From assembly GCA_013416795.1 (NCBI GenBank), contig RQSC01000011.1:327191-364168 (forward strand): 36,978 bases of DNA, written 5' to 3'. Below are positions 2,143-36,978 of this stretch, piece by piece. Both the position numbers and the translations under genes were made by a program. The stretch's first letter is position 1, and every line of letters starts with the position of its first letter. Origin of the DNA: Prasinococcaceae sp. CCMP 1430. Taxonomy: Eukaryota > Prasinodermophyta > Palmophyllophyceae > Prasinococcales > Prasinococcaceae. The notes below the pieces were generated by a model. It was not told where the DNA came from. It made no database searches and was given only the letters and a program-made list of their open reading frames with translations.

Positions 2143-4473
2143 TCACTTGGGCGTGCACACGTTCTTCTTGAATGCGCAGAGCTTCTTGGCGTCGCCCTGC
2201 TTGCACTCCTTCTTGTTCTTGGCGGCCTTGCAGAGCTTCTTGATGGCCTTTTTGGAGAGCTCGGACTGGTCGGTCTTCTTCGACTCCTTCTTCTTGTTCT
2301 TGTTCTTCTTCTTCTTGCCGGTGGGCTCGTCGCCCTCCTCGGGAGGAGGCGACGGGGTGCCGGAGAGCTTGTCGGACTTGCCGGCCTTCTTCTTGTTCTT
2401 CTTCTTGTCCTTGCCGGTGGGCGACGACGCGCCTGGCAGAGTGATGTCGAGGGCTGGCGCTGTTGCGTCGTCGAACAGGCCCTCCGCATCTTCGGCGGAC
2501 TGGGCGGACGTCGAGGACTCGCCGCCCTCGAACGCGCCCGGCACGTCCGTCTGGCCGTGGTCGTCACGACCCCAGCAGTAGATCGCGCCGTCGTCCCGGG
2601 CGACGCCGCACGTGTGAGCCGCTCCGGCGCTCACGGACGCCCACGCGCCCACGCCGCTCGGCACGTCCAGCTGGCCGTCGGCGTTGTGCCCCCAGCAGTG
2701 CATCGAGCCGTCGTCCTGGGCGACGCCGCACGTGTGCCAGTCTCCTGCGCTCACTGAGGACCACGCGCCCGCGCCGCTCGGCGCGTCCGCCTCGCCGGCG
2801 GCGTTGCTTCCCCAGCAGTGAATCGCGCCGTCGGCCTGCGCGACGCCGCACGTGTGAAAGTATCCTGCGCTCACCGAGGACCACGCGCCCACCTCGCTCG
2901 GCACGTCCGCCTGGCCGTAGGAGCTCCGTCCCCAGCAGTGCAGCGCGCCGTCGGCCAGCGCGACGCCGCACGTGTGGAAGGTTCCGGCGCTCACGGAGGA
3001 CCACGCGCTCACAGTGCTGGGCACGTCGCTCTGGCCGAAGAGGTTCCACCCCCAGCAGCGGAGCGCGCCGTCGGCCCGCGCGACGCCGCACGTGTGGGCC
3101 CCTCCGGCGCTCACGGAGGACCACGCGCGGACGGCGCTCGGCACGTCCGCCTGGCCCGCGTAGTTGGACCCCCAGCACTGGAGCGCGCCGTCGGCCCGCG
3201 CGACGCCGCACGTGTGGGAGAGTCCGGCGCTCACGGAGGACCACGCGTTGTCGCGCCCCGCATCGTGCGGCACGTGCACGTAGCCGTCGCCCGGGGTCGT
3301 CGCGTCGAGCGGCAGCCGCACGCGCTCCGGCGTGCACACGCTCGCGGGCCGCGAGTGCCTTCGCGACGAGTCGTCCACAGCGAGGGGCGGCGGAGATTGG
3401 GGGTTGTTGGGCGGCGGGCTCGATGGCGAGCTCGAAGGAAGGCTCGGCGGAGGCGGGCTCTCTGGCGGAGCATTAGCCGGGACGGGGCTGGGCGACGGGC
3501 TCGACGGCGGGCTGGCCGCCGGCGGAGGACTCGTCGGGCTCGCCACGTCAGATGTGCTCGGCACGTCCGTCTGGCCATTTGTGTTTCTCCCCCAGCAGTA
3601 GATCGCGCCGTCGGCCACGCCGCACGTGTGGTGGATTCCGGCGCTCACGGTGGACCACGCGCCCACGCCGCTGGGCACGTCCGTCTGGCCATAGTCGTTG
3701 GTGCCCCAGCAGAGCAACGTGCCGTTGGCCTGCAAGATGCCGCATGTGTGCCACCCTCCGGCGCTCACGGTGGACCACGCGCCCGCGCCGCTCGGCACGT
3801 CGGTCTGGTTCCAGACGTCCTGTCCCCAGCAGCGCAGCGCGCCGTCCGCCAGCGCGATGCCGCACGTGTGGTAGTTTCCGGCGCTCACGGAGGACCAAGC
3901 GCTCACGTCGCTCGGCACGTCCGACTGGTTGTAGTAGCTGTTGGATCCCCAGCATTGCAGCGCGGAGTCCGCCTGCGCGATGCCGCACGTGTGGTCGTAT
4001 CCGAGGCTCGCGGAGGACCACGCAGTCACGTCGCTCGGCATGGCGGTCTGGCCCGCGTAGCTCAATCCCCAGCAGTGGAGCGCGCCGTCCGCCCGCGCGA
4101 TGCCGCACGTGTGAGTCGCTCCGGCGCTCACGGAGGACCACGCGCTCACGTTGCTGGGCACGTCCATCTGGCTGTCGACGTCGCGCCCCCAGCAGTGCAT
4201 AGCGCCGTCGTCCCGCGCGACGCCGCACGTGTGCGCGTCTCCTGCGCTCACCGAGGACCACGCGCTCACGTTGCTCGGCACGTCCACTAGCGCGCCGAGG
4301 TAGTCTTCGTCGTACATCATGGCATTTTCGGACGGTGCTTCGCCTCCCCAACAGCGCAGCTCGCCGTCGGCGAGCGAGAGGGCGCACGTGGCCCTGTATC
4401 CGGCGCTCAGGGAGTACGATTCGCGGTGCGAGTCGGGAGCGGCGGCCGCACCGCGCGGTGCGAGCAGCGCCAC
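2143..4473 (-). CDS. RCC1-like double beta-propeller protein with Lys/Cys tail (gene A)
   Basis: A tandem-repeat protein of about 776 aa. Each repeat (37-40 aa) carries AWSSVSAG, HTCG, DGA and CWG, the signature of the RCC1/BLIP-II propeller superfamily. Seven CWG repeats are followed by a Pro/Ser-rich linker (about 3400-3545), six more CWG repeats plus one scrambled blade, then a Lys-rich tail with four cysteines (KKLCKAAKNKKECKQG region). The frame is open above 4473 to a TAG near 4496 and encodes a hydrophobic AAWAAVALLAP stretch that resembles a signal peptide, but no in-frame ATG is present. The true start is therefore unsettled: GTG at 4473 is only the nominal start, and an upstream exon is possible. 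The signal-like start and SPPP linker suggest a secreted or wall protein, not a Ran exchange factor. The scrambled blade coincides with the complemented block at 3291-3360. Gene B at 31571-33691 is its paralog. Confidence 0.75.
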   Translation of the reverse strand: MALLAPRGAAAAPDSHRESYSLSAGYRATCALSLADGELRCWGGEAPSENAMMYDEDYLGALVDVPSNVSAWSSVSAGDAHTCGVARDDGAMHCWGRDVDSQMDVPSNVSAWSSVSAGATHTCGIARADGALHCWGLSYAGQTAMPSDVTAWSSASLGYDHTCGIAQADSALQCWGSNSYYNQSDVPSDVSAWSSVSAGNYHTCGIALADGALRCWGQDVWNQTDVPSGAGAWSTVSAGGWHTCGILQANGTLLCWGTNDYGQTDVPSGVGAWSTVSAGIHHTCGVADGAIYCWGRNTNGQTDVPSTSDVASPTSPPPAASPPSSPSPSPVPANAPPESPPPPSLPSSSPSSPPPNNPQSPPPLAVDDSSRRHSRPASVCTPERVRLPLDATTPGDGYVHVPHDAGRDNAWSSVSAGLSHTCGVARADGALQCWGSNYAGQADVPSAVRAWSSVSAGGAHTCGVARADGALRCWGWNLFGQSDVPSTVSAWSSVSAGTFHTCGVALADGALHCWGRSSYGQADVPSEVGAWSSVSAGYFHTCGVAQADGAIHCWGSNAAGEADAPSGAGAWSSVSAGDWHTCGVAQDDGSMHCWGHNADGQLDVPSGVGAWASVSAGAAHTCGVARDDGAIYCWGRDDHGQTDVPGAFEGGESSTSAQSAEDAEGLFDDATAPALDITLPGASSPTGKDKKKNKKKAGKSDKLSGTPSPPPEEGDEPTGKKKKNKNKKKESKKTDQSELSKKAIKKLCKAAKNKKECKQGDAKKLCAFKKNVCTPK
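3291..3360. other. Non-reversed complement block in RCC1-like gene A
   Basis: Every one of these 70 bases is the plain complement, in the same left-to-right order, of 32305-32374 in RCC1-like gene B. In gene B the block encodes a normal blade ending SHTCGLAHADGELRCWG; here the minus strand instead encodes an R/P-rich stretch with no CWG. Sequence on both sides aligns directly between the paralogs, so only this block is altered. Confidence 0.9.
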
Positions 4474-6832: not shown

Positions 6833-7711
6833 AGCCAAGACTATCGAGCCGGCACCGCTGGCCGCGTTGCTGACCGTCGCTGAGCGCCTCGACAAAACGT
6901 AGGCACTCCCCAGTTGAACTTCGCCCACGAGGACGGCGAGTTGCAAGGTGCGGTCACGCATCTTTGAGGGCGACAAGCTCAACAACCTTCGAGCCACCTG
7001 GGGTTCGAGCACGCAAATGTCAGACGCTGCACGATTGCGACCACAGCAGATAGAGCTATCGACGTCGCATCGCCCACTCCTAGTTTCCTGCGCCCGCCAT
7101 CCCAATGTGTATGAGACATGGCGTGTGTGGATCCAGTCGCTCGCCCCGCCTGCTCCGCCCCGCGCGCGCGGGGTGGCGGGCACGCCGCCGGCGCCGTTCC
7201 CCGGCAGCCGCGTACCAGGACTGTACTGTGGTCCAGCTAGACTCTCGAGGCAGCCGGCCGACAGCGCCGGGTCGCCAGGGTTCTCTAGCTAGCTAGAGAC
7301 TACTCCTACAGTCGTCGTACTGTAGAACGCAGCGTGACGCCGTGTCTGGCCGCACCAACGGGCGGTGAGACCGGGGATGACATCCTCTGACCGAGGCAGG
7401 AAGGCGGGGTCACCCGGGTGAGCGCGAAGGACAGTACATGTACATACAGTAGTCACTAGTGCAGTACTAGTACTACTGTACTGTAACTGCCCTCGAGCTG
7501 TACGAGCGAGCGTGTGTGGGGTGAGGGGGGTGGGTGGGGGCGGTAGCAGGAGCCACTCGAGGGCGCCCCAGCAGGCGCCCACCGCCGCGCCGCCTTGACC
7601 CCTCCCTGTTTCCCACGCGCGTGCCCCCTGTGGTGGTGTGTGTTGGGGGGGGGGGGGAGTGCGGCGCGGCGTGGGCGCGCGCTTTGCCGCCGCGGCGTCC
7701 CGAAGGCGACG
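6833..7711. other. Intergenic, palindrome-rich upstream region of the ABC transporter gene
   Basis: No convincing coding frame. The second half is richer in A/T than its surroundings and contains a cluster of perfect palindromes and hairpins (7282-7479, listed separately), then a G-rich run at 7645-7657 just before the transporter start. Confidence 0.5.
7282..7479. repeat. Cluster of perfect palindromes and hairpins
   Basis: An 18-nt perfect palindrome, TCTCTAGCTAGCTAGAGA, sits at 7282-7299. A 7-bp hairpin, CTACAGT/ACTGTAG, follows at 7306-7325. Two 10-nt palindromes lie at 7434-7443 (GTACATGTAC) and 7464-7473 (GTACTAGTAC). The second is nested in an 8-bp inverted repeat, ACAGTAGT/ACTACTGT (7446-7453 and 7472-7479). 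Such density in a GC-rich genome suggests binding sites or a cruciform-forming region. Confidence 0.6.
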
Positions 7712-9848
7712 ATGTCCATCTGGGAGGGCGTGGCGCCGCGTGCCGGGCTGCGCGAGCCGCTGCTCGCGCCGTCCGACGCGCACCGCCGCGCTGCTGGCGC
7801 TCGGTGCGCGCGAGGCCGCCTGGGTGGGCGCCGGCGTCGCGGCCCTGCTTGTGAGGCTGCCCTTCTCGCTGTCGATGCCGCTGTGGACCGCGCGTGCCGT
7901 GGACGAGCTCTATGGCTCCGACGAAGCGCGTGACATGGCGGCGGTGCGGCGCACGCTGCTGTACATGGCCGCCGCGGGCACCATCGATGCCGCGCTCGAC
8001 TTTTGGTGTGTGTTCCTCTTCGGCTATGCGCAGCAGCGCCTCGTGCGGCAGCTGCGGCTCGACACGATGGCGGCCATCCTGCGGCAGGAGGTGGCGTATT
8101 TCGACGCAACGACCAGCGGTGAGCTGCTGAGCCGGCTGACGGCGGACTGCGAGGCGATGGCGGGCGACCTCACCAACGTGCTGCGCTCGGTGGTGGAGGC
8201 CGTTGTGCGCATCGGCTGGATTGCCGCGTACATGCTCTACTCGTCGCCGCGGTTGGGCGGGGTTGCGTGCTGCGTGGTGCCGCTCACCGCCGCAGTGACG
8301 CGCTGCTACGCGCGCTGGCTGCATGCCAACGCCACGCGCGTGCAGGCGGCGCTCGCGCGCGCCAACGCCTCCGCTGCCGAGGCGCTCGCCGGCCTGCGGA
8401 CGGTGCTCGCCTTCGCCGCGGAGCGCGCCGAGCTCGCGCGCTTCGGCGCGGCCGTCGAGGAGCACCACTGGCTCAACGTGCGTCAGCTGGTCATAACGGG
8501 CGCGTACTACGCCGTGGCCGCCACCCTGCTCTCTAACACCGCCGTGGCGGTGGCGCTGCTAGCATACGGCGCCGTGCTTGTCGCGGAAGGCTCCATCTCC
8601 CCCGCCACGCTGCTGGGATTCATGCTGTACCAGGCGCAGCTGCAGGAGTATTGGAACAACCTTCTGAACGCGCTCACCGGCTTGGTGCGCTCGTCGGGCG
8701 CGGGCGCCAAGGTTTTCGAGCTGCTCGGTAGGCAGCCCAAGTGCGTGCGCCTCGACGGGGGCGGGCTCGGCGACGCGTGTGGTTGGCTCGGCGACGGACT
8801 ACGCGACAACACGGCGCCGGGGCGGACTGGTGGAGGCGGACGCGTGGGTGCTGACGCCGATGCGAGCACGCGCGCCAAGGCACGGGCGCATTTGCTGGGC
8901 GTCGACGTGCGCGACGTGTCCTTCGCGTACCCCACGCGGCCATCCGTGCGCGTGCTCGACGGCGTGGGCCTGCGCGCGGAGGCCGGCGAGACGGTGGCGC
9001 TGTGCGGGGCGAGCGGCAGCGGCAAGAGCACGCTTTTTCACATGCTTCAGGGGTTCTACGAGCCCGACGCGGGAGGCGTGTTCCTCTTGGGCGATGTGGT
9101 TGGTGGCGAGGCCGCTGTGTGTGCCATCCCACACCGTGCTCTGCATCGGCTGGTGGCGCTGGTTGGCCAGGAGCCGGTGCTCTTTTCCGGGTCCGTGGAG
9201 TATAACATCCTGTACGGCGCGCTCGCCGACCTGGTGGCGGAGCGTGAAGTAGCCGACGTCGCGCGCCCGCGCATGCGCGCTCGCGAGCGCACGCGAGCGG
9301 GGCTCGCGGGGGCGTTTGGGCTGCGCGGGCGCGTAGGCGCGGACTCGGATGTGAGGGCGAGCGGCTGGGAGGACCTCGTCGGCTCGCCCGCGGCCCTGGT
9401 AGACCTGCGCGCGCGCGCGCGCGCCGCTGCGGCCCTCGCGAACGCCGCGGGCTTCATCGATGCGCTGCCCGAGGGCTACGCTACGCAGGTGGGCGAGGGT
9501 GGCGCGGCGCTGAGCGGCGGGCAGAAGCAACGTGTGGCCATCGCGCGGGCGCTGCTCCGCGACCCGGCGCTGCTGCTGCTCGACGAGGCCACCAGCGCAC
9601 TCGACTCGGAGAGCGAGGCGGCCGTGCAGGAGGCGCTCGAGTCCGCTGCCGCCGGCCGCACCACTATGGTCATCGCGCACCGCCTGTCGACCATCCGCCG
9701 CGCGGACGCCATCCACGTGCTGCGCGCGGGCCGCGTCGTGCAGAGCGGCACGCACGCCGCGCTTCGCGCCGACGCGCGCGGCGCGTACGCGGCGCTCGCG
9801 CACGCGCAGGAGCTGCGCGACGACGCGGGGACAGATGAGGACTCGTGA
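7712..9848 (+). CDS. Half-size ABC transporter, ABCB/TAP-like (one frameshift near the N-terminus)
   Basis: One transmembrane domain followed by one nucleotide-binding domain, the layout of ABCB half-transporters that work as dimers. Nucleotide-binding motifs in order: Walker A GASGSGKST (near residue 432), Q-loop VGQEPVLFSG, signature LSGGQKQRVAIARAL (near 600), Walker B LLLLDEATSALDSES, H-loop IAHRLST. The only plausible ATG, 7712 (MSIWEGVAP...LLAPSDAHR), is one base out of frame with the rest; dropping one base near 7786-7792 joins it to ALLALGAREAAWVGAGVAA, a good first helix. An alternative is an intron with a GTGCGCG donor near 7802, which would delete much of that helix. About 45 extra Arg/Ala/Gly-rich residues (about 9265-9430) sit between the Q-loop and the signature, and a Gly/Asp-rich linker (about 8755-8880) joins the two domains. 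Substrate not deducible. Ends at TGA 9846-9848. Confidence 0.85.
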
Positions 9849-13210: not shown

Positions 13211-14278
13211 GGCACCGACCGCCGTCGCCCACGCCCTTCCTCACAGCCCCCCTCCCTTTGCCTCCCTGCCCTTGTCCCCCACGCGGTGCGCTGGCGCCGC
13301 CGCCGCCGCTCGCCGCCGCCGCGGCGGCCGCCACACCAGGCCCGCCTCTCACCCCCCCACCCACTCTCCCACCGCCGCACGCAGCTGCTCGCGCGCAGCA
13401 ACGCCCTTGGCCACTTCGCTCAGGGCTGGCAAGCGCCCCGGCGGCGGGCGCCCCGCGAAACGCGCGCGAATTCGGCCGAAAGCAAAAGAGCTGGAAAACC
13501 AAAACCAAAACCAAAACCACAACCACAGCCCCGGTTGGGACCTCCCGGATGTGTTGGGGCTGACTGCATTGTACCAGGTACACACTAATATTCTATTCCT
13601 AACCACAACCAAAAACCAACCAAAACCAAAACTGGGAGTCCCGACCGACCGTTGGTGGCGGTGCCACCCCGACCTCGACCTCGGCACGCGTGCGCATCGT
13701 TGGCGGAGGTGCGGAGCGGAGCCCGGACCGAATGGAGCGTCGACGCGCGCGCGTGCCCCGCCCCCAATCCGACTGAGGGGCCTCGATCGGATCAAACCTC
13801 CCATCAACACGGCGGCGCCCGTCCGCCTCCAGCCCGGGCCGAACCGCAACGGATCCAACGAAACTCGCGGAATGAAACTTCATAAGTGTGCGAATCCATG
13901 CGGAACCCACACGCGGGGACTCTACCGACCGCGCGCCCGCCTTTTTTTTTTTTTTGAAATGGGGGAGGGGAGGAAAGAATGCAGGCGACGAGAGGCCATG
14001 ATCTCAGCCCTTTGTAAAAGGATCTAAATCAAAAATTTGAATTTTTCGCGCGCGTGGCTGAGAGCGGGGTGCATGGGCGGGCGAGGCGCGGCGGGAGGGG
14101 ACGCCACACCTCGCGCTCGGGGCGGGCGGACGGGAGGGGGGGGGGGACCAGGTGGGTTGAGGAGGGCGAGGAGGAGGGGAGGAGAGAGCTGGTCGGAGGG
14201 CTGCGCGCCGGTGCGCGCCGCTGCGCGCCGCTGCGCGCCGCTGCGCCGGGATGGCGCTACGGCGCGGGCGATGACGCC
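13211..14278. other. Intergenic between EMSY-like and CAP-D3 genes (divergent)
   Basis: No convincing gene. Contents: two (CCAAAA)n-like simple repeats at about 13497-13530 and 13600-13635, a 15-T run at 13941-13955 with an AT-rich stretch 13950-14045, and a G-rich run near 14125-14140. A 10-nt tandem repeat (CGCGCCGCTG) fills about 14210-14245 just before the CAP-D3 start. This is a shared promoter region for two divergent genes. Confidence 0.5.
14251..14274 (+). promoter_or_regulatory. Candidate upstream ORF of the CAP-D3 mRNA
   Basis: ATG at 14251 opens seven codons and ends in TGA at 14272-14274, four bases before the main ATG at 14279. If the leader contains it, it could reduce or condition CAP-D3 translation. 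Only position and frame support this. Confidence 0.3.
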
Positions 14279-17200
14279 ATGGACGTGGACGCCGACGCCG
14301 GCGCCGAAAGCGACGCGGGCGCCAGCCTCGCCTCGCCCGAGTCCCTGGCGCGCGCGCTGCGCGCCATCACCACGCGCCACGGCAAGCTGCTCTCGACGCG
14401 CAGCGAGGCCGTGCGCGCGGCGGCCGCGCTTTGCGGCGACGTGCTCGCGTGCGAGCGGTCGCCGGCGCAGGCCGTGGAAGACGCATGCGAGGCGCTGCGT
14501 GCGCTCTGTGTTGGCGGTGGCTTCGTCACCGTGGCGCTCGCCGCGTGCGTGCTCAAGGAGCTGCTGCCATGCCTGCTCTACGGCGCTCCGCCCGCGGCCG
14601 CGAGCGTCAACCGCTCGCAGCCCACCATGAGCCGCGCCCAGAAGGCGTGCCGCGCCGCGGCGCTCGAGGTGGCGTTGTGTGTTGCCGACTCGACCACCAG
14701 CGCGGCGGCGGCGGCGCTCTCTCGCCAGCTCTGCCTTCGCGCCCCCGAGCGCGCCGACCTGCACAACCTGGCCATCGAGGCCGCGCGCGACCTCGTGCAC
14801 ACGCTGCCGCTCGCGGAGCGCCATCGCATGGGCCGCTTCCTCGCCAAGCTCAGCAAGAACGGCAAGCCCGTGCGCCGCCAAGTCGCGGTCGAGCTCGCTG
14901 GCGAGCTGCTCGCCACCATGCCTGGTGCGCAGGACGAGATCCCGGCGGGCATGGAAATGGAGATCGTAACCCCCGGCTCCGTCGCCGGCACGCCGGGCTC
15001 AGTGTACGGCGGCACCCCCTCGGGCACGCCCGGTGGCGGTGGCGCGCGCTCGCCCTTCCCGGTCACACCCGGCGCTGCTGTTGGCACGCCGTACGCTTCC
15101 ACACCAGCCAGTGCGACCGCCGGCACGCCGCAGCCGACCCCAGGCGCGTTTGGCCAGAGCGCCCCCCTCTCGTGGGGTGCGTCCTGCGCTGGCGTGGTGG
15201 TGGCGCGCGCGAGCGACCGCATGCCCGCCGTGCGTGCCAAGGCTTTGGCAGCGCTGGCGGTCGCACTGCGCGCACTCACCGCCGAGGGCTTCCACGGCCT
15301 CGTGGCGCGCGCAGCGAGCGCGTCGCCCGGAAGCACGCTCCTTACCACCGGTGCGCACACCGATGCACTTCTGGGCTTTACGGCCCCCACAGATGCTGGC
15401 ACGAAGGCCACCGCGTCGACGCCGGTTGGACCGACGCCCATGGACGACACCGCGGGCAGGGAGGGCATCAACGCCGCTGCGCGTGCGTCCGCACGCGCAA
15501 TGGCGCCCCTGCTCTACCGCCGCGTGACGGACGTCAAGCCTGCGGTGCGCAAGGCAGCGCTAGCCGCGCTCGAGTCCCTCTGCACGTCCGCTGGCCACGC
15601 CACCCGCGAGGATATTGCAGCACTGTCCGCGTGCTGCTCCGACAGCCTCGTGAGCGTGCGACGGCAGGCTGCGGCGTCTCTCGGTGCGATGTGCGCGTGC
15701 CTGCCGAATGACCCCGCGCTTGCCCGTGCGGTCGCAGAGACGGTGCTTCCCCTCGCCGCGGACCCGGAGGCGCAGGTCGCAGACAAGGCCGCGGACGTCT
15801 GCGAGCAGGTCTTCCTCGCGCCCCTCGTGACCGGCGACGCATCAGCCGCCGAGGAGGTCGCGAGCACGCTGGGTGCGCTTGCAGATGCGCCGAGCGCGAT
15901 GGCGGCCTTGCCCCGCGCTCTTGGCGCGCTGCACGCCCGCAAGGCGGTGAAACCCGCGCATGTACGCGCGCTGCAGGCCTGCTGCGCCAAGGGCACGCGC
16001 ACGAGCGCGCGCGCGGGAGCGCTGGCACTCCTCGCGCAGCTCGCGGACTGCGCGCCGGGCGCAGTGTCGGCGGAATTCATCACCGCGCAGTGGAAGAGTC
16101 TGGACGCGTCCTCTTCCGTCGAGGAGGACTCCTCCATGGCCGACGTGCTTCGCATCATTGCCAAATGTGGCGCCTCTGCGCTGAGTGCCGATGCGGGCGG
16201 ACAGATGACTGCGACGCTGGCGGGTCGCCTGGCCGCGTGCGCCGCGTCGCCCGCGACCGTATCGGCGATGATGGGCGCTGCCATCGCCTTGGGCGGCACG
16301 CGCGTCCTGCCGCCACTCATGGAGTCTGCTGCCAAGCGCGTTGTGCGCGCGGTGACTGCCGGCGATCTCGGCACCGGCTTCGAGTCAGGCGTGCAGGACA
16401 GCGCGCAGAGCGCGACTCTCGTTGCTGCGCTGTTCATGCTCGGCGAGTCAGCGCTCATCTTGGAGCGCGAAGCGCCCGCCGAGGCCGTCACTATGACTCA
16501 GGCGCTGCTGGGCGCGTACCTTGAACGCTCCGGCGACGCCAGCAGCGTGCGCGTGCCCTCTGTTGTGCGCGCGCACGCGTGGTGTGCCCTGGGCAAGATG
16601 TGCGTCGCGTACGAGCCGCTCGCCAAGAAGTGTGCGGTGCTTTTCGTCGCCGAAGCCGAGTCCGGGGCCGAGGCCGCAAGCCGCAACAACGCGCTCGTGG
16701 CGCTGTCCGACCTCTGCGTGCGCTACACTGCGGTCGTCGACGGGCGCATGGAGAGGCTGGCGTCATGCCTGCGCGATCCCTGTGAGCTGGTGCGCCGCCA
16801 GGCGATGCTCCTGCTCGCGTCGCTGCTGCAGCGCGACTACCTGAAGTGGCGCGGCGCGGTCTTCCACCGCTTCTGCCTGGCTCTTGTGGACGAGAGCCCT
16901 GCCATCCGCGACCTCGCCACGCACCTACTGGGGAGCACACTTGCAGCTAAGGTGCCCATGCTCGCGCACAATCACTTCGTGGAGGCCTTCTTTGTGCTCA
17001 ACGCGTGCACGATCGGTCCTGGCGCGGGCGCTGCCGTTCCTGAGGGCGCCAAGGCCCGCTCCCTGTTCTGCCTCGAGGGGACGCACATGCGCTCTCGCCG
17101 TCTGGCCGTCTACCGCCGCCTGCTTGCCACCATGACGCCCGAGCAGCGCTTCGCCTCTACTGCCCGCCTCTGCAGCGAAGTGCTCGGCTGCGTCGCGGAC

Positions 17201-18196
17201 GGCGGCCTGCCGGTGAACGAGTGCGAAGAAGTCATCGCAGACGTCCTCAGCGTGCTTGCCAGCAAAGAGGCGCAGACTGGCGGCGCGCTGTCGACGAGCG
17301 CCGGCGCATCGGAGCCTGAGAATGCCATGGAGGCCGTTGCGGCCGCCAAGGGCCGTGTGGTGTCGCAGCTCATGCGCAAGAATACGCTCGAGAATGTGGT
17401 GCCCGTGCTTGTCGAGCTGCGTGCGCTGCTGCAGCGGCTGCGCTCGCCGCTGCAGGGGCACATGCTGGGCTGCGCGTGCGACGTCCTGCGCCCGCACCGC
17501 AACGAGCTGCGCGACGCGCTGGCGGCGGACCCGCTCTTTGCCGCGGAGGTGGCCGACGAGATGCGACGCAGAGATGCGACGCGCGCCGCTGGCATGCAGG
17601 CGCAGCAGCAGCAGCCGAGCGCGCAGAGCGCACAGCAGCCCGCGCCGCAGCAGCCTGCCGAGCAGGCTGCGGCCGCGCCTGCGAATCGGACTCCCGCGAC
17701 GGCCAAGACCGTGCGCATCGCCACCGAGGCGACGCCGAACGCCGATGCAAATGCCTCGCCCATGTACGCTGCCACGGGGACCCCAGGCGCGGGCCTCTCG
17801 GGCGGCACCGCCACGCTGCGGGCGCTCGCATCGGCCGGCACCCCGCGACACTCGGAGATGTCGGTGCCGCGGTTGCGCACAACGCGCGCGCGTACGCGCG
17901 CAGGCGCCGCTGCCGCGCTTGCGAGCGGCTCGCCGTCACCCGGTGGCGCGCGACGCGTGTCAGGCGTGGCCTTCGACGGTAGCGAGGGCGCGCAAGCGCG
18001 CGCAGCGGCGACCGTGTGCGCCATCCGCACGCCGGGCTCGGCTGCCGCTGGTCAGGAGCCCCGCGAGCGTTGGAATGTCACACTGGCCGCGCCAACCACA
18101 GACGCGAACGCCGACGCCGAGGACCTCGCTGCAGATGCAGACGCTGCTGCTGCTGAGGAGCCCAAGGCTGGCATGAAGCGCGCGCGTGGCGAGTGA
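14279..18196 (+). CDS. NCAPD3: Condensin-II subunit CAP-D3
   Basis: A HEAT-repeat subunit of condensin II, which compacts mitotic chromosomes with SMC2/SMC4, CAP-G2 and CAP-H2. One exon of 1,305 codons from ATG 14279 (MDVDADAGAESDAG); frame upstream is open but has no earlier ATG. HEAT-type helical pairs run through most of the protein (for example KPAVRKAALAALESLC, RVPSVVRAHAWCALGKMCV, CELVRRQAMLLLASLLQ). The diagnostic CAP-D3 block follows: RDYLKWRGAVFHRFCLALVD (about residue 852), HNHFVEAFFVLNAC, RRLAVYRRLLATMTPEQRF (about 938) and LPVNECEEVIADVLSVLASKE, aligning with the end of the condensin D3 core. A Thr-Pro-Gly-rich insert (about residues 230-290) interrupts the N-terminal HEAT array, and the C-tail is dense in SP/TP sites with an Arg/Lys end, as expected for a Cdk-regulated tail. 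Length fits the family. Absence of introns is notable beside its intron-bearing neighbours. Confidence 0.85.
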   Translation: MDVDADAGAESDAGASLASPESLARALRAITTRHGKLLSTRSEAVRAAAALCGDVLACERSPAQAVEDACEALRALCVGGGFVTVALAACVLKELLPCLLYGAPPAAASVNRSQPTMSRAQKACRAAALEVALCVADSTTSAAAAALSRQLCLRAPERADLHNLAIEAARDLVHTLPLAERHRMGRFLAKLSKNGKPVRRQVAVELAGELLATMPGAQDEIPAGMEMEIVTPGSVAGTPGSVYGGTPSGTPGGGGARSPFPVTPGAAVGTPYASTPASATAGTPQPTPGAFGQSAPLSWGASCAGVVVARASDRMPAVRAKALAALAVALRALTAEGFHGLVARAASASPGSTLLTTGAHTDALLGFTAPTDAGTKATASTPVGPTPMDDTAGREGINAAARASARAMAPLLYRRVTDVKPAVRKAALAALESLCTSAGHATREDIAALSACCSDSLVSVRRQAAASLGAMCACLPNDPALARAVAETVLPLAADPEAQVADKAADVCEQVFLAPLVTGDASAAEEVASTLGALADAPSAMAALPRALGALHARKAVKPAHVRALQACCAKGTRTSARAGALALLAQLADCAPGAVSAEFITAQWKSLDASSSVEEDSSMADVLRIIAKCGASALSADAGGQMTATLAGRLAACAASPATVSAMMGAAIALGGTRVLPPLMESAAKRVVRAVTAGDLGTGFESGVQDSAQSATLVAALFMLGESALILEREAPAEAVTMTQALLGAYLERSGDASSVRVPSVVRAHAWCALGKMCVAYEPLAKKCAVLFVAEAESGAEAASRNNALVALSDLCVRYTAVVDGRMERLASCLRDPCELVRRQAMLLLASLLQRDYLKWRGAVFHRFCLALVDESPAIRDLATHLLGSTLAAKVPMLAHNHFVEAFFVLNACTIGPGAGAAVPEGAKARSLFCLEGTHMRSRRLAVYRRLLATMTPEQRFASTARLCSEVLGCVADGGLPVNECEEVIADVLSVLASKEAQTGGALSTSAGASEPENAMEAVAAAKGRVVSQLMRKNTLENVVPVLVELRALLQRLRSPLQGHMLGCACDVLRPHRNELRDALAADPLFAAEVADEMRRRDATRAAGMQAQQQQPSAQSAQQPAPQQPAEQAAAAPANRTPATAKTVRIATEATPNADANASPMYAATGTPGAGLSGGTATLRALASAGTPRHSEMSVPRLRTTRARTRAGAAAALASGSPSPGGARRVSGVAFDGSEGAQARAAATVCAIRTPGSAAAGQEPRERWNVTLAAPTTDANADAEDLAADADAAAAEEPKAGMKRARGE

Positions 18197-31129: not shown

Positions 31130-31570
31130 TCACCTGGGCCTGCACGCGTTGTTCTTGAATGTGCAGAGCTTCTTGGCGTCGCCCTGCTTGCACTCCTTCT
31201 TGTTCCTGGCGGCCTTGCACAGCTTCTTGATGGCCTTTGTGGAGAGCTCGGACTCGTCGGTCTTCTTCGACTTCTCCTTCTTCTTGTTCTTCTTCTTCTT
31301 GCCGGTGGGCTCCTCGTCCTCTTCGGGAGGAGGCGACGGCGAGCCGGAGGGCTTGGACTTGCCGGCCAAGAAGAACAAGAAGAAGAACGAGAAAAAGAAC
31401 AGGAACGGCCCGGGCGACGACGCGCCTGGCAGAGTGATGTCGAGGGCCGGCGCTGTTGCGTCGTCGAACAGGCCATCCGCATCTTCGGCGGACTGGGCGG
31501 ACGTCGAGGACTCGCTGCCCTCGAACCGCGGGCCGTGCAGGCAGACCGGCACCAGCAGTGCTGGGGTCGT
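31130..31570 (-). pseudogene. Detached C-terminal tail of RCC1-like gene B
   Basis: In gene A the corresponding sequence is translated as the end of the last blade, SSTSAQSAEDAEGLFDD, the Lys-rich stretch and the Cys tail. Here the same protein sequence (ESSTSAQSAEDADGLFDD, then KAIKKLCKAARNKKECKQG, ending ACRPR) is still open in frame, but a TAG at 31571-31573 cuts it off from the propeller. Two complemented blocks fall in or at this region. The part at 31368-31410 would be read as FLFFFSFFFLFF instead of Lys-rich sequence. Confidence 0.7.
31368..31410. other. Non-reversed complement block in the Lys-rich tail of gene B
   Basis: The first 21 and last 10 bases are the plain complement of 2387-2407 and 2408-2417 in gene A; 12 extra bases sit between them. 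On the minus strand Lys codons (AAG) become Phe (TTC) and Asn (AAC) become Leu (TTG), giving an apparent hydrophobic segment. Because the tract is nearly mirror-symmetric, simple inversion is harder to exclude here than for the other blocks. Confidence 0.7.
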
Positions 31571-31571
31571 C
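31527..31571. other. Non-reversed complement block that creates the stop in gene B
   Basis: All 45 bases are the plain complement, in the same order, of 2534-2578 in gene A; the flanks align directly with no gap. The last altered base (31571) turns TAC of IYCWG into TAG, ending the propeller frame. Confidence 0.9.
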
Positions 31572-33691
31572 TAGATCGCGCCGTCCTCCCGGGCGACGCC
31601 GCACGTGTGAGCCGCTCCGGCGCTCACGGAGGACCACGCACCCGCGCCGCTCGGCACGTCCGTCTGGCCGTCGGCGTCGCGCCCCCAACAGCGCATCGCG
31701 CCGTCGTCCCGGCTGACGCCGCACGTGTGCCAGTCCCCTGCGCTCACCGAGGACCACGCGCCCGCGCCGCTCGGCGCGTCCGCCTGGCCGTCGTCGTTGG
31801 ACCCCCAGCAGTGAATCGCGCCGTCGGCCTGCGCGACGCCGCACGTGTGAAAGTATCCTGCGCTCACCGAGGACCACGCGCCCACGCCGCTCGGCACCTC
31901 CGTCTTGCCAAAGCCGCTGCGTCCCCAGCAGTGCAGCGCGCCGTCGGCCAGCGCGACGCCGCAGGTGTGGAAGGTTCCGGCGCTCACGGAGGACCAAGAG
32001 GACCACGCGCTCACAGTGCTGGGCACGTCGCTCTGGCCGAAGAGATTCCACCCCCAGCAGCGGAGCGCGCCGTCGGCCCGCGCGACGCCGCACGTGTGGG
32101 CCCCTCCGGCGCTCACGGAGGACCACGCGCGGACGGCGCTCGGCACGTCCGCCTGGCCCGCGTAGTTGGACCCCCAGCACTGGAGCGCGCCGTCGGCCCG
32201 CGCGACGCCGCACGTGTGGGAGAGTCCGGCGCTCACGGAGGACCAGGTGTTGTCGCGCCCCGCATCGTGCGGCACGTGAACGTAGCCGTCGTGGCCCCAG
32301 CAGAGGCCCCAGCAGCGCAGCTCGCCGTCGGCGTGCGCGAGGCCGCACGTGTGCGAGCGCCCGGCGCTCACGGAGTGCGGTGTGGCATCCACAACGAGGG
32401 GCGGCGGAGAGTTCGGGTTGTTGGGCGGCGGGTTTTGAAGAGGCGGGCTCGACGGAGGCGGGCTCGACGGAGGCGGGCTCGACGGCGGCGGGCTCGACGG
32501 AGGCGGGCTCGACGGCGGCGGGCTCGACGGCGGGCTGGCCGCCGGCGGAGGACTCGTCGGCGGGCTCGGCGGCAGCCAGCTCGGCACGTCCGTCTGGCCG
32601 TATTCGCCGTCGCCCCAGCAGTAAATCGCGCCGTCGTCCCGGGAGACGCCGCACGTGAAGTACGACCCGACGCTCACGGAGGACCACGCGCTCACGTTGC
32701 TCGGCACGTCCGTCTGGCCGTTGCCATTGAGTCCCCAGCAGAGCAGCGCGCCGTCGGCCTGCGCGATGCCGCACGTGTGCCATTCCCTGGTGCTTACCGA
32801 GGACCACGCACTCACAACGACCGGCACGTCCGTCTGGCCCTCGCCGTTAGATCCCCAGCAGTGCAGCGCGCCGTCGTCCAGCGCGATGCCGCACGTGTGG
32901 TACATTCCGGCGCTCACGGACGACCACGCGCTCACGTCACTCGGCACGTCCGCCTGGCCGTAGTCGTCGTAGTCAGAGGGGGATCCCCAGCAGCGCATCG
33001 CGCCGTCAGCCTGCGCGATGCCGCAGGTGTGGTACATTCCGGTGCTCACGGACGACCACGCGCCCACGCCGCTCGGCACGTCCGTCTGCCCGTCGGTGTT
33101 CGATCCCAAGCAGTGCAGCGCGCCGTCGGCCTGCGCGATGCCGCACGAGTGGAACAGAGATGGGCTCACGGAGGACCACGCGCCCACGCCGCTCGGCACG
33201 ACCCCTTCGCCGTACATGTTATACCTCCAGCAGTACAGCGCAGAGTCCGCCCGCGCGATGCCGCACGTGGCGTAGGCGCCGGCGCTGACGGAGGACCACG
33301 CGCTCACATTGCTCGGCATCGGAATGTGCTCGTACTCGGAGACGTAGTAGTAGGTGGAGTCGGACGGTTCAATTTCTGGCCAGCAGCGCAACTCCCCGTC
33401 GGCGTGCGCGAGGCCACACGCGTGGAACGATCCGACGCTCACGGAGTACGGCGGCTCTGAGTCCGAGTCCGAGGCGGCGGTTAGCTCTGAGTCCGAGTCC
33501 GAGGCGGCGGTTAGCTCTGAGCCCGAGTCCGAGGCGGCGGTTAGCTCTGAGTCCGAGTCCGAGGCGGCGGTTAGCTCTGAGTCCGAGTCCGAGGCGGCGG
33601 CGGCGCCGTTGAGGCCCGGTGCGAGCGCCGCCGCGCATGTCGCGAGGAGCAGCAGCTTGTTGGTTGTTGCGAGGGGGGGTGGAGGGGGCAT
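31571..33691 (-). CDS. RCC1-like double beta-propeller protein (gene B)
   Basis: ATG at 33691 gives MPPPPPLATTNKLLLLATCAAALAPG, a clear signal peptide. It is followed by five 10-residue units of the type SDSDSELTAA, then seven RCC1-type blades (HTCG...DGALHCWG), a Pro/Ser linker of repeated SSPPP (about 32440-32560), and a second set of blades. The second set contains the CWG blade LRCWGLCWG at 32300-32340, which is scrambled in gene A. The frame stops at TAG 31571-31573 within the last blade, after AREDGAI, giving 706 aa. Gene A continues there, so the stop is secondary. A 9-nt duplication (WSSWSS) occurs near 31990-32000. Upstream the frame is open to 33937 without a better start. Probably extracellular; ligand unknown. 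Confidence 0.8.
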   Translation of the reverse strand: MPPPPPLATTNKLLLLATCAAALAPGLNGAAAASDSDSELTAASDSDSELTAASDSGSELTAASDSDSELTAASDSDSEPPYSVSVGSFHACGLAHADGELRCWPEIEPSDSTYYYVSEYEHIPMPSNVSAWSSVSAGAYATCGIARADSALYCWRYNMYGEGVVPSGVGAWSSVSPSLFHSCGIAQADGALHCLGSNTDGQTDVPSGVGAWSSVSTGMYHTCGIAQADGAMRCWGSPSDYDDYGQADVPSDVSAWSSVSAGMYHTCGIALDDGALHCWGSNGEGQTDVPVVVSAWSSVSTREWHTCGIAQADGALLCWGLNGNGQTDVPSNVSAWSSVSVGSYFTCGVSRDDGAIYCWGDGEYGQTDVPSWLPPSPPTSPPPAASPPSSPPPSSPPPSSPPPSSPPPSSPPPSSPPLQNPPPNNPNSPPPLVVDATPHSVSAGRSHTCGLAHADGELRCWGLCWGHDGYVHVPHDAGRDNTWSSVSAGLSHTCGVARADGALQCWGSNYAGQADVPSAVRAWSSVSAGGAHTCGVARADGALRCWGWNLFGQSDVPSTVSAWSSWSSVSAGTFHTCGVALADGALHCWGRSGFGKTEVPSGVGAWSSVSAGYFHTCGVAQADGAIHCWGSNDDGQADAPSGAGAWSSVSAGDWHTCGVSRDDGAMRCWGRDADGQTDVPSGAGAWSSVSAGAAHTCGVAREDGAI
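32449..32540. repeat. 15-nt tandem repeat encoding the SSPPP linker
   Basis: About six copies of GGCGGGCTCGACGGA-like units, each encoding SSPPP on the minus strand. Together they link the two propeller halves of gene B. Gene A has a more diverged linker at 3400-3545. Confidence 0.75.
33451..33600. repeat. Five tandem 30-nt repeats encoding Ser/Asp/Glu units
   Basis: Period exactly 30 nt (33451, 33481, 33511, 33541, 33571). The units are almost identical; one carries GCC for GTC, changing Asp to Gly. They form an acidic spacer just after the signal peptide of gene B and are absent from gene A. Near-identity implies recent expansion. Confidence 0.9.
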
Positions 33692-34370: not shown

Positions 34371-34371
34371 N
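34371..34371. other. Single N: probable assembly join
   Basis: The only ambiguous base in the window. To its left a plus-strand coding frame is cut; to its right begins a Pro-linker of a minus-strand gene. Each side lacks its continuation, so this is more likely a collapsed gap or contig join than one unread base. Confidence 0.8.
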
Positions 34372-36863
34372 GGCGGGCTCGGAGGCGGGCTCGAGGGGGT
34401 CAGATCAAAGACGTACGCGCTGCCGCTATCGTCGCCGCCGTCGTTGTCCTCCCTATCAGCGCCCACCAGCGCGTAGTAGCCCGAGAGCGCCACGCTGACG
34501 CCGAAGTAGTCATCCGCCGCGGCGTCGCTTGCCACCAGCTTGGCGTGCTGCGACCACGACGTCCCCGACCGCAGGAAGACGTACGCGCTGCCGCTGTCGT
34601 CGCCGCCGACGGCGTCGTAAGGAACGCCCACCAGCGCGTAGTCGCCCGAGAGTGCCACGCTTGTGCCGAAGTTGTCATACTCCGCGCCGTCGCTGGCCAA
34701 CAGCTTGGCCTGCTGCGACCACGAGGTCCCCGACCGCACGAAGACGTACGCGCTGCCGCTGGCGGAGCCGTCAAAAGGGGCGCCAACCAGCGCGTAGTCG
34801 CTAGAGAGCGCCACGCTGGTGCCGAACTCGTCATTCGCCGCGCCATCGCTGGCCACCAGCTTGGCCTGCTGCAACCACGACGTCCCATTGCGAACGAACA
34901 CGTACGCGCTGCCGCTGTTGGAGCCACTGTCGTCGTCGTGGGGAGCGCCCACCAGCGCGTAGTCGCCCGAGAGCGCCACGCTGACGCCAAAGCGGTCGTC
35001 GTACGTGCCGTCGTCGGCCATAAGCTTGGCCTGCTGCGACCACGACGTCCCCGAACGCACGAACACGTACGCGCTGACAGGGTTGCCGTCGTTCCACCAA
35101 GCGCCAACCAGCGCGTAGTCGCCCGAGAGCGCCACGCTGGCGCCGAAGTTGTCAGATCGGCGCCGCAGCGACCGTTGGTCGAACCGGACGACGCTGGTGC
35201 TGCAGGGGCTGGGCACGAACACGTACGCGCTGCCGCTCTCGTCGCCGCCGTCGTCGTCATATAGAGCGCCCACCAGCGCGTGGTCGCCCGAGAGCGCCAC
35301 GCTCCAGCCGAAGGCGTCACCCGCCGCGGCGTCGCTGGCCACCAGCTTGGCCTGCTGGGACCACGACGTCCCATTGCGCACGAACACGTACGCGCTGCCG
35401 CTGTAGGGGCCGCCGTCCTCGTCTGAATAAGCGCCCACCAGCGCGTAGTCGCCCGAGAGCGCCACGCTGGTGCCAAAGTAGTCAGCGTCCGTGGCGTCGT
35501 TGGCCACCAGCTTGAACTGGTTCGGCGGTCCTGAGCTTCCTCCTGAGCCTCCTCCTTCCCAACCTCCGCCCGAGCCTCCGCCCCTCGGAGGCGGGGTCGG
35601 CGGAGGCGGGCTCAGCGGCGGGCTCGGAGGCGGGCTCGGCGGCGGGCTCGGCGGCGGGCTCGGAGGAGGGCTCGAGGGATTAAGATCAAAGACGTACGCG
35701 CTGCCGCTGAAGGAGCCGCCGTCGTCGTCCCATTCAGCGCCCACCAGCGCGTAGTCGCCCGAGAGCGCCACGCTGACGCCGAAGCGGTCATATTCTGCGC
35801 CGTCGCTGGCCACCAGCTTGGCCTGCTGCGACCACGACGTCCCCGACCGCACGAACACGTACGCGCTGCCAGTCCTTGCGACGCTGACGTTGTTCTCAAG
35901 AGCGCCCACCAGCGCATAGTCGCCCGAGAGCGCCACGCTGTGGCCGAAGAAGTCAGCCTCCGCGGCGTCGCCGGCCACCAGCTTGGCCTGCTGCGACCAC
36001 GACGTCCCCGACCGCACGAACACGTACGCGCTGCCGCTGTTCACGCCGCCGTCGTCATCGTACACAGCACCCACCAGCGCGTAGTCGCCCGAGAGCGCCA
36101 CGCTTTCGCCGAACAAGTCACCCGCCGCGCCGTCGCTGGCCACCAGCTTGGCCTGCTGCGACTACGACGTCCCCGAACGCACGAACACGTACGCGCTGCC
36201 GCTGTCAGGGCCGTCCCCGCGAGCGCCGATCAGCGCGTAGTCGCCCGAGAGCGCCATGCTGATGCCGAACAAGTCACCCTCCGCGCCGTCGCTTGCCACA
36301 AGCTTGGCCTGCTGCGACCACGACGTTCCGGTGCGCACGAAAACGTAGGCGCTGCCGCTGTTCTCGCCGCCGTCATCGTCCCCAAGAGCGCCCACCAGCG
36401 CGTAGTCGCCCGAGAGCACCACGCTGTCGCCAAAGTAGTCATCCTCCGCGCCGTCGCTGGCCACCAGCTTGGCCTGCTGCGACCACGTCGTCCCCGAGCG
36501 CACGAAGACGTACGCGCTGCCGCTCTGGAAGCCGCCGTCGGCGTCTCCAAAAGCGCCCACCAGCGCGTAGTCGCCCGAGAGCGCCACGCTGGCGCCGAAC
36601 TGGTCCAACGCCGTGCCGTCGCTGGGCATCAGCTTGGCCTGCTGCGACCACGACGTCCCCGACCGCACGAACACGTACGCGCTGCCGCTCATGTCGCCGT
36701 TGTCGTCATCAAATAACGCGCCCACCAGCGCGTAGTCGCCCGAGAGCGCCACGCTGCTGCCGAACTCGTCATCCCCCGCGCCGTCGCTGGCCAGCAGCTT
36801 GAACTCCTCCTCCAAGTCCGCATGCGTCATACGCACCGCCATGGTCTGGCGCCAGCAGCGCAA
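34372..36863 (-). CDS. FG-GAP double beta-propeller protein (in-frame TAG, 3' end lost at gap)
   Basis: A repeat protein with about 14 units of 45-50 aa, each with FGxSVALSGDYALVGA, GSAYVF and WSQQAKLVASDG, the FG-GAP/integrin-alpha type propeller blade. Seven units run from 36863 to about 35700; a linker of repeated SPPP (about 35575-35670) follows; seven more run to about 34400, where another Pro linker hits the N at 34371. Two seven-bladed propellers are thus indicated. Blade 4 has TAG at 36162-36164 where all sisters have TGG (WSQQ), a single-base nonsense change, so the gene reads as two frames. The third blade of the second half is entered through a complemented block (35158-35212). The visible start, MAVRMTHADLEEEFKLL (near 36843), lacks a signal peptide; a signal-like MPTPRRLLSAWVALLAP lies just upstream in another frame. 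Likely extracellular. Confidence 0.72.
35158..35212. other. Non-reversed complement block in the FG-GAP gene
   Basis: The plain complement of this block matches the sister repeat at 35959-36013 at 52 of 55 positions, and 37 consecutive bases at its right end are exact. Complementing it back restores RSGTSWSQQAKLVASDAAA in the reading frame, in place of the observed PSPCSTSVVRFDQRSLRRR. The flanks (TCTGAC on one side, FVR on the other) are normal repeat sequence. Confidence 0.85.

Positions 36864-36913: not shown

Positions 36914-36978
<65 letters not shown>
36897..36978. repeat. (TTG)n then (TG)n microsatellite at the window end
   Basis: Six GTT/TTG units pass into about 29 TG units, broken near the end by TGCGTG. 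It lies upstream of the FG-GAP start and runs to the window edge. No function is implied. Confidence 0.95.

Follow-up and report, generated by a model that had tools for sequence, protein, structure and literature searches.

Segments complemented without reversal in RCC1 and FG-GAP repeat genes of a Prasinococcaceae draft genome: a probable assembly artefact

Introduction

Assembly errors usually take the form of collapses, wrong copies, indels and inverted contigs. To our knowledge, DNA copying is antiparallel, gives reverse complements and cannot make complements that keep the order of the copied strand; for that, synthesis would have to run in parallel, or strands be joined 5'-5' and 3'-3'. 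Here we describe six short blocks in the draft genome of Prasinococcaceae sp. CCMP 1430 that are nevertheless same-order complements of their paralogues. Like an in-place micro-inversion, such a block is a short segment changed in place, with its length kept and its flanks continuous, but a micro-inversion is a reverse complement and these blocks are complements in the same order, so they fall outside that class. Gap-filling and consensus errors of draft assemblies are closer: the blocks likewise lie in repeat genes that have close paralogues, on scaffolds with N runs and single Ns, and break reading frames, and they are absent from the one nonrepeat gene with an outside counterpart (7638-9848). 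They differ from the usual assembly errors in being complemented without reversal, a fault for which a narrow full-text literature search found no description.

The genes concerned belong by profile match to two known families of repeat proteins, RCC1 (PF13540; genes A and B) and FG-GAP_2 (PF14312; gene C). Unlike intact RCC1 and FG-GAP_2 units, those with blocks 1 and 4 lose the profile match wholly or partly.

Materials and methods

The genome comprises 24.5 Mb in 145 contigs. The window, meaning the whole 36,978-nt stretch that was analysed, is the right end of scaffold C3; further stretches of the genome were retrieved as numbered loci (L001 onward). In all, 148,081 non-N bases were scanned for complement blocks, and these scans detect blocks only in DNA that has paralogues. 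Loci L001 to L008, which are overlapping copies, were omitted from the extended complement, masked, base-swap, orientation-count and in-place inversion scans; L018, which is all N, was omitted from the FG-GAP-extended, base-swap, masked and in-place inversion scans; and L025 was omitted from the base-swap control. For the motif test, the reading frame was the gene's own for blocks 1 to 5 and one of three tried for block 6. Protein searches for genes A and C scored only the 8000 candidates sharing most words with the query.

Results

A 70-nt block in gene A is the same-direction complement of gene B. The original prediction held that one segment of gene A is the exact complement, unreversed, of a segment of gene B, and this proved correct to the base: read in the same direction, 3291-3360 and 32305-32374 are complementary at 70 of 70 positions and identical at 0 of 70. 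It had also held that the flanking sequence aligns directly, which is so on the right (29/40) but not on the left at the same offset (15/40). Gene B carries an extra near-duplicate of about 12 nt just left of its match to block 1, and once this is allowed for the left flank aligns directly as well (both by eye). Both edges of block 1 are sharp, and with a 3-mer entropy of 4.49 the block is not of low complexity. Its letters in the window are those of genome scaffold C3 (320-base query spanning the block, 100% identity), where by window offset it occupies C3:330481-330550.

The further claim, that the block is a normal RCC1 blade in gene B and destroys one in gene A, was borne out by profile search, the gene B piece matching RCC1_2 at 26.9 bits and the gene A piece being without any Pfam match. 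As found, block 1 translates as RHSRPASVCTPERVRLPLDATTP; complemented, it translates as SVSAGRSHTCGLAHADGELRCWG. In a genome-wide RCC1 profile search, the block 1 blade of neither gene A nor gene B was among the matches listed.

Block 1 is one of six. It had been noted as a single oddity; the scans put the number of blocks at six, five of them spread over genes A, B and C of the window and the remaining one on scaffold C76 (Table 1). A same-direction complement scan of the window by itself added two strong blocks, 31527-31571 (block 2) and the core of 35158-35212 (block 4). With 100 kb of upstream sequence on C3 (about 79 kb non-N) and 18 kb around other RCC1 loci included, block 6 was found on C76, and with 10.7 kb from the FG-GAP repeats on scaffolds C124 and C89 included, block 4 reached 55/55 and block 5 reached 56/56, both against one C124 locus. 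Five blocks are perfect against their best paralogue, at 262 of 262 positions (70, 45, 55, 56 and 36 nt), and these five are in-place, same-order complements with length kept and sharp edges. The weakest is block 3, complementary at 24 of its 26 alignable positions; its right edge is unclear, and the boundary given there is approximate.

Table 1. Positions of the repeat genes, the complement blocks and related features (window coordinates unless a locus or scaffold is named)
Feature	Position	Strand	Evidence
Gene A, RCC1-repeat protein ORF, 776 aa	2143..4473	-	ORF; PF13540 RCC1_2, 255.1 bits, 11 stretches
Block 1, 70-nt nonreversed complement in gene A, one RCC1 blade disrupted	3291..3360	.	70/70 to 32305-32374
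Gene B, RCC1-repeat ORF as read, 788 aa	31571..33937	-	Ends at stop formed at block 2 edge
Normal-orientation counterpart of block 1, in gene B	32305..32374	.	Alignment and RCC1_2 match
Block 2, 45-nt nonreversed complement in gene B	31527..31571	.	45/45 to 2534-2578 (gene A) and to L021:2393-2437
Block 3, complemented Lys-rich tract in gene B tail, reads Phe-rich	31368..31411 (approx.)	.	24/26 in alignable part
Gene C, FG-GAP_2 repeat ORF, 624 aa	34269..36143	-	PF14312, 593.3 bits
Block 4, 55-nt nonreversed complement in gene C, cuts FG-GAP unit	35158..35212	.	55/55 to L022 (C124); 52/54 to 35960-36013
Block 5, 56-nt nonreversed complement in gene C, with Pro-rich linker read as Gly-rich	35529..35584	.	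56/56 to L022:1518-1573, other strand
Block 6, 36-nt nonreversed complement, scaffold C76	L019:3666-3701 (C76:324666-324701)		36/36
Single N, edge of gene C repeat region	34371..34371	.	

Blocks 2 and 6 show the switch most clearly when set against their closest copies: each is flanked on both sides by 40/40 directly matching positions, which give way to 45/45 and 36/36 complementary ones with no mixed positions. The exact flanks shared with another copy extend over 67 and 59 nt for block 2 (copy in L021) and 55 and 51 nt for block 6, so that, with the block counted as complement, both blocks lie within matching stretches of more than 140 nt. Exact repeat flanks of this kind are where short-read contigs break. 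Blocks 4 and 5 are perfect to the C124 locus within the block, whereas the identity of their flanks to it is lower (31/40 and 33/40 for block 4; 16/40 and 36/40 for block 5), and they may therefore carry borrowed sequence.

All six blocks sit in repeat genes, RCC1 or FG-GAP, and the genome is a gapped draft of which only DNA with paralogues could be tested; since detection needs a paralogue, this confinement to repeat genes may be an effect of detection. Rescanning the 148,081 non-N bases with the six blocks masked brought up no further convincing block. What remained were 26 low-scoring complement rows, the best of them with a score of 17.7 at 49% complement, and the other base swaps left 13 and 2; we judged the 26 complement rows to be chance or palindromic. 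No complement block of their own was found in the repeat loci L020 to L024, and the large tandem FG-GAP_2 array that occupies C124:2179-9885 (L022 and L023) gave no convincing one in the scan. Genome-wide counting with complement queries returned one match each for blocks 1 and 4, by a method insensitive enough to have missed the 36-nt block on C76.

The blocks break protein motifs that plain complementing restores. The affected genes of the window all lie on the minus strand, and their profile matches lie above the family thresholds: genes A and B (255.1 and 231.3 bits) exceed the PF13540 cut-off of 22, and gene C (593.3 bits) exceeds the PF14312 cut-off of 23. The sequence as found breaks a protein motif in six of six blocks, and in each case the plain complement alone, translated as an isolated piece, gives the motif expected at that place, namely, an RCC1 blade (blocks 1, 2 and 6), a Lys-rich tract (block 3), an FG-GAP strand (block 4) or a Pro-rich linker (block 5). 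Block 3, for example, reads GPFLFFFSFFFLFF as found and PGKDKKKSKKKNKK when complemented. For block 4, the gene C piece yields one FG-GAP_2 stretch (33.1 bits) compared with two (53.9 bits) for the corresponding piece of another unit, and in the genome profile search the unit at C3:362251-362346 matches only model positions 15 to 49 and stops beside the block.

Two of the blocks also make stop codons, block 2 at its edge (31571-31573, in frame) and block 6 in its interior, in the motif frame. Past the block 2 stop, the frame of gene B continues uninterrupted into the terminal region that gene A also has and, except in block 3, looks conserved by eye. Open frames across block 6 go from 1359 to 288 aa, a change that the stop in the motif frame fits.

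A near-copy carries block 2 in normal orientation. On scaffold C49, a 331-nt stretch (L021:2326-2660) is a near-copy of genes A and B, 95% identical to gene A over its length. Outside block 2 it is closer to gene B (60/60 and 211/219 positions) than to gene A (58/60 and 206/219), and it has the block 2 segment in normal orientation, at 45 of 45 positions. At its end the near-copy meets a gap of two Ns and then a T run, and the sequence on its left is unrelated; it may be allelic or paralogous, or else a repeat contig that was stranded or misplaced.

For the nonrepeat ABC-transporter gene at 7638-9848, comparison with an ENA contig protein (P0121) gave 681 identical residues among 689 aligned, with no clustered mismatches. 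The ORF segment at 7712-7790 is without about 37 mostly Gly/Ala-rich residues that P0121 has near its start, and the frame changes there; this low-complexity difference is not a complement block, and its source may be an intron, natural variation or the collapse of a low-complexity stretch. For genes A and C, the protein collection held no close copy: the top match to gene A had 47% identity over 30% of the query, the best identity among the 120 matches listed being 56% over 30%, and the top match to gene C had 53% over 93%, with 58% the highest among the matches listed.

Discussion

Probable complementing without reversal during assembly. The blocks are present in the sequence record and are very probably not real in the organism. 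Our preferred reading, to which we give a probability of about 85%, is that segments were complemented but not reversed during the original assembly and would be absent from the organism's DNA. The original prediction had offered two possibilities, a processing artefact or a new phenomenon, and had taken the perfect match as the sign of a recent or artificial origin. What has since been added favours the artefact, namely, five further blocks, their spread over two scaffolds of one assembly (C3 and C76), a motif logic that holds in six of six cases, a near-copy in normal orientation and the absence of in-place inversions; the new phenomenon gained no support beyond the pattern itself. A string operation that complements without reversing gives exactly what is found, which makes a fault in strand handling the most economical account.

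That the origin lies in the original assembly, and which step was at fault, we infer. In the mechanism that we propose, short segments of 36 to 70 nt in repeat genes with close paralogues would enter the consensus complemented, with their order unreversed. The most likely moment would be gap closing, or strand handling as contigs were joined through repeats, and the filling sequence perhaps came from a paralogue, as blocks 4 and 5, with their better match to the C124 locus than their flanks have, may hint. The setting is that of a gapped draft: the scaffold stretches examined hold N runs that range in length from 150 to over 8,000 bases, more than 10 kb of N stands immediately before the window, and one or two Ns occur at each of five places (window 34371, L016 7622, L017 213, L019 8529 and L021 2658). 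The single N at window 34371, where other sequence meets the gene C linker, is likely a forced contig join, while part of the N runs may be something other than assembly gaps. Two observations count against a fault of assembly: N runs do not fall at the edges of the blocks, and the repeat loci L020 to L024 yielded no blocks.

Alternative readings. Chance and low complexity were ruled out by exact-match lengths and by base-swap controls. Among exact matches in the window with a 3-mer entropy of at least 4.0, the same-direction complement matches reach 70, 45 and 37 nt, compared with 18 nt for the longest reverse-complement match; on the same paired diagonals, the A-G/C-T and A-C/G-T swaps scored at best 16.3 and 18.8, compared with 82.0 for the complement. 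Ordinary inversion and plain reversal were rejected likewise: with each pair oriented first, no in-place inversion (reverse complement) and no in-place reversal of at least 26 nt was found. Once opposite-strand loci had been included, 171 reversal-only and 3,638 reverse-complement matches of at least 16 nt were counted, as opposite-strand copies would give. Short inversions are generally common and the region is GC-rich and repetitive, as a small inversion, a palindrome-driven template switch or a low-complexity coincidence misread as complement would have it; set against these results, the zero direct identity of the same-direction complement and the entropy of block 1, such a misreading has a negligible chance of being correct. 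A line-width or coordinate artefact was also rejected: the scaffold coordinates of block 1 fit round tens, and those of block 2 (C3:358717-358761) do not.

A fault introduced in silico after assembly, whether in polishing, record conversion, database handling or preparation of the copy, and including a deliberate test pattern, would leave much the same trace, as a faulty string operation on intervals would complement in place with the length unchanged. We consider it unlikely: the window and the genome scaffold agree over block 1, block 6 sits on a separately retrieved scaffold (C76, L019), and blocks in the repeat genes of a gapped draft fit assembly better than a blind operation on intervals, within the limits of a detection restricted to paralogous sequence. 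Far less probable still is a real cellular event in which 36 to 70 nt were copied in parallel orientation, or strands were swapped in place, in repeat genes. The sequence pattern itself, with several blocks in two gene families, speaks for it. On the other side, known polymerases and recombination are established to be antiparallel and to give reverse complements, the same repeats hold no in-place inversions, the five perfect blocks show no decay over their 262 positions, the frame past the block 2 stop looks conserved, and the near-copy of the gene B region has block 2 normally oriented. That a eukaryote process writes 36 to 70 nt of DNA in parallel (same-direction complementary) register in repeat genes, by a route unlike any known form of replication, repair or recombination, is if anything a shade harder to credit.

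Were the blocks real, the antiparallel rule of DNA copying would be contradicted. As an artefact of assembly they carry modest weight: complemented segments break repeat domains and create false stops while leaving length and GC unchanged. The signature is useful as a quality warning for a draft genome, and other draft genomes could be screened for it cheaply by scanning their paralogous repeats for same-direction complements.

Other features of the window and genome. The published account of Prasinoderma coloniale gives a GC content of 69.8%, compared with 69% for this window, and an assembly of 22 chromosomes from PacBio reads (PMC7455551). A run of TG, 32 copies long, forms the end of the scaffold (window 36915-36978). 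The ORF at 14054-18196 (1380 aa) has condensin (Cnd1) and HEAT matches, and its best PDB match is condensin-2 subunit D3. The organism is photosynthetic, with 22 matches to chlorophyll-binding genes in the genome; one chlorophyll-binding protein is nearest to PDB chains of LHCI-n (9vfj), which we take to be from Euglena, and of chlorophyll a-b binding proteins, presumably of the green lineage.
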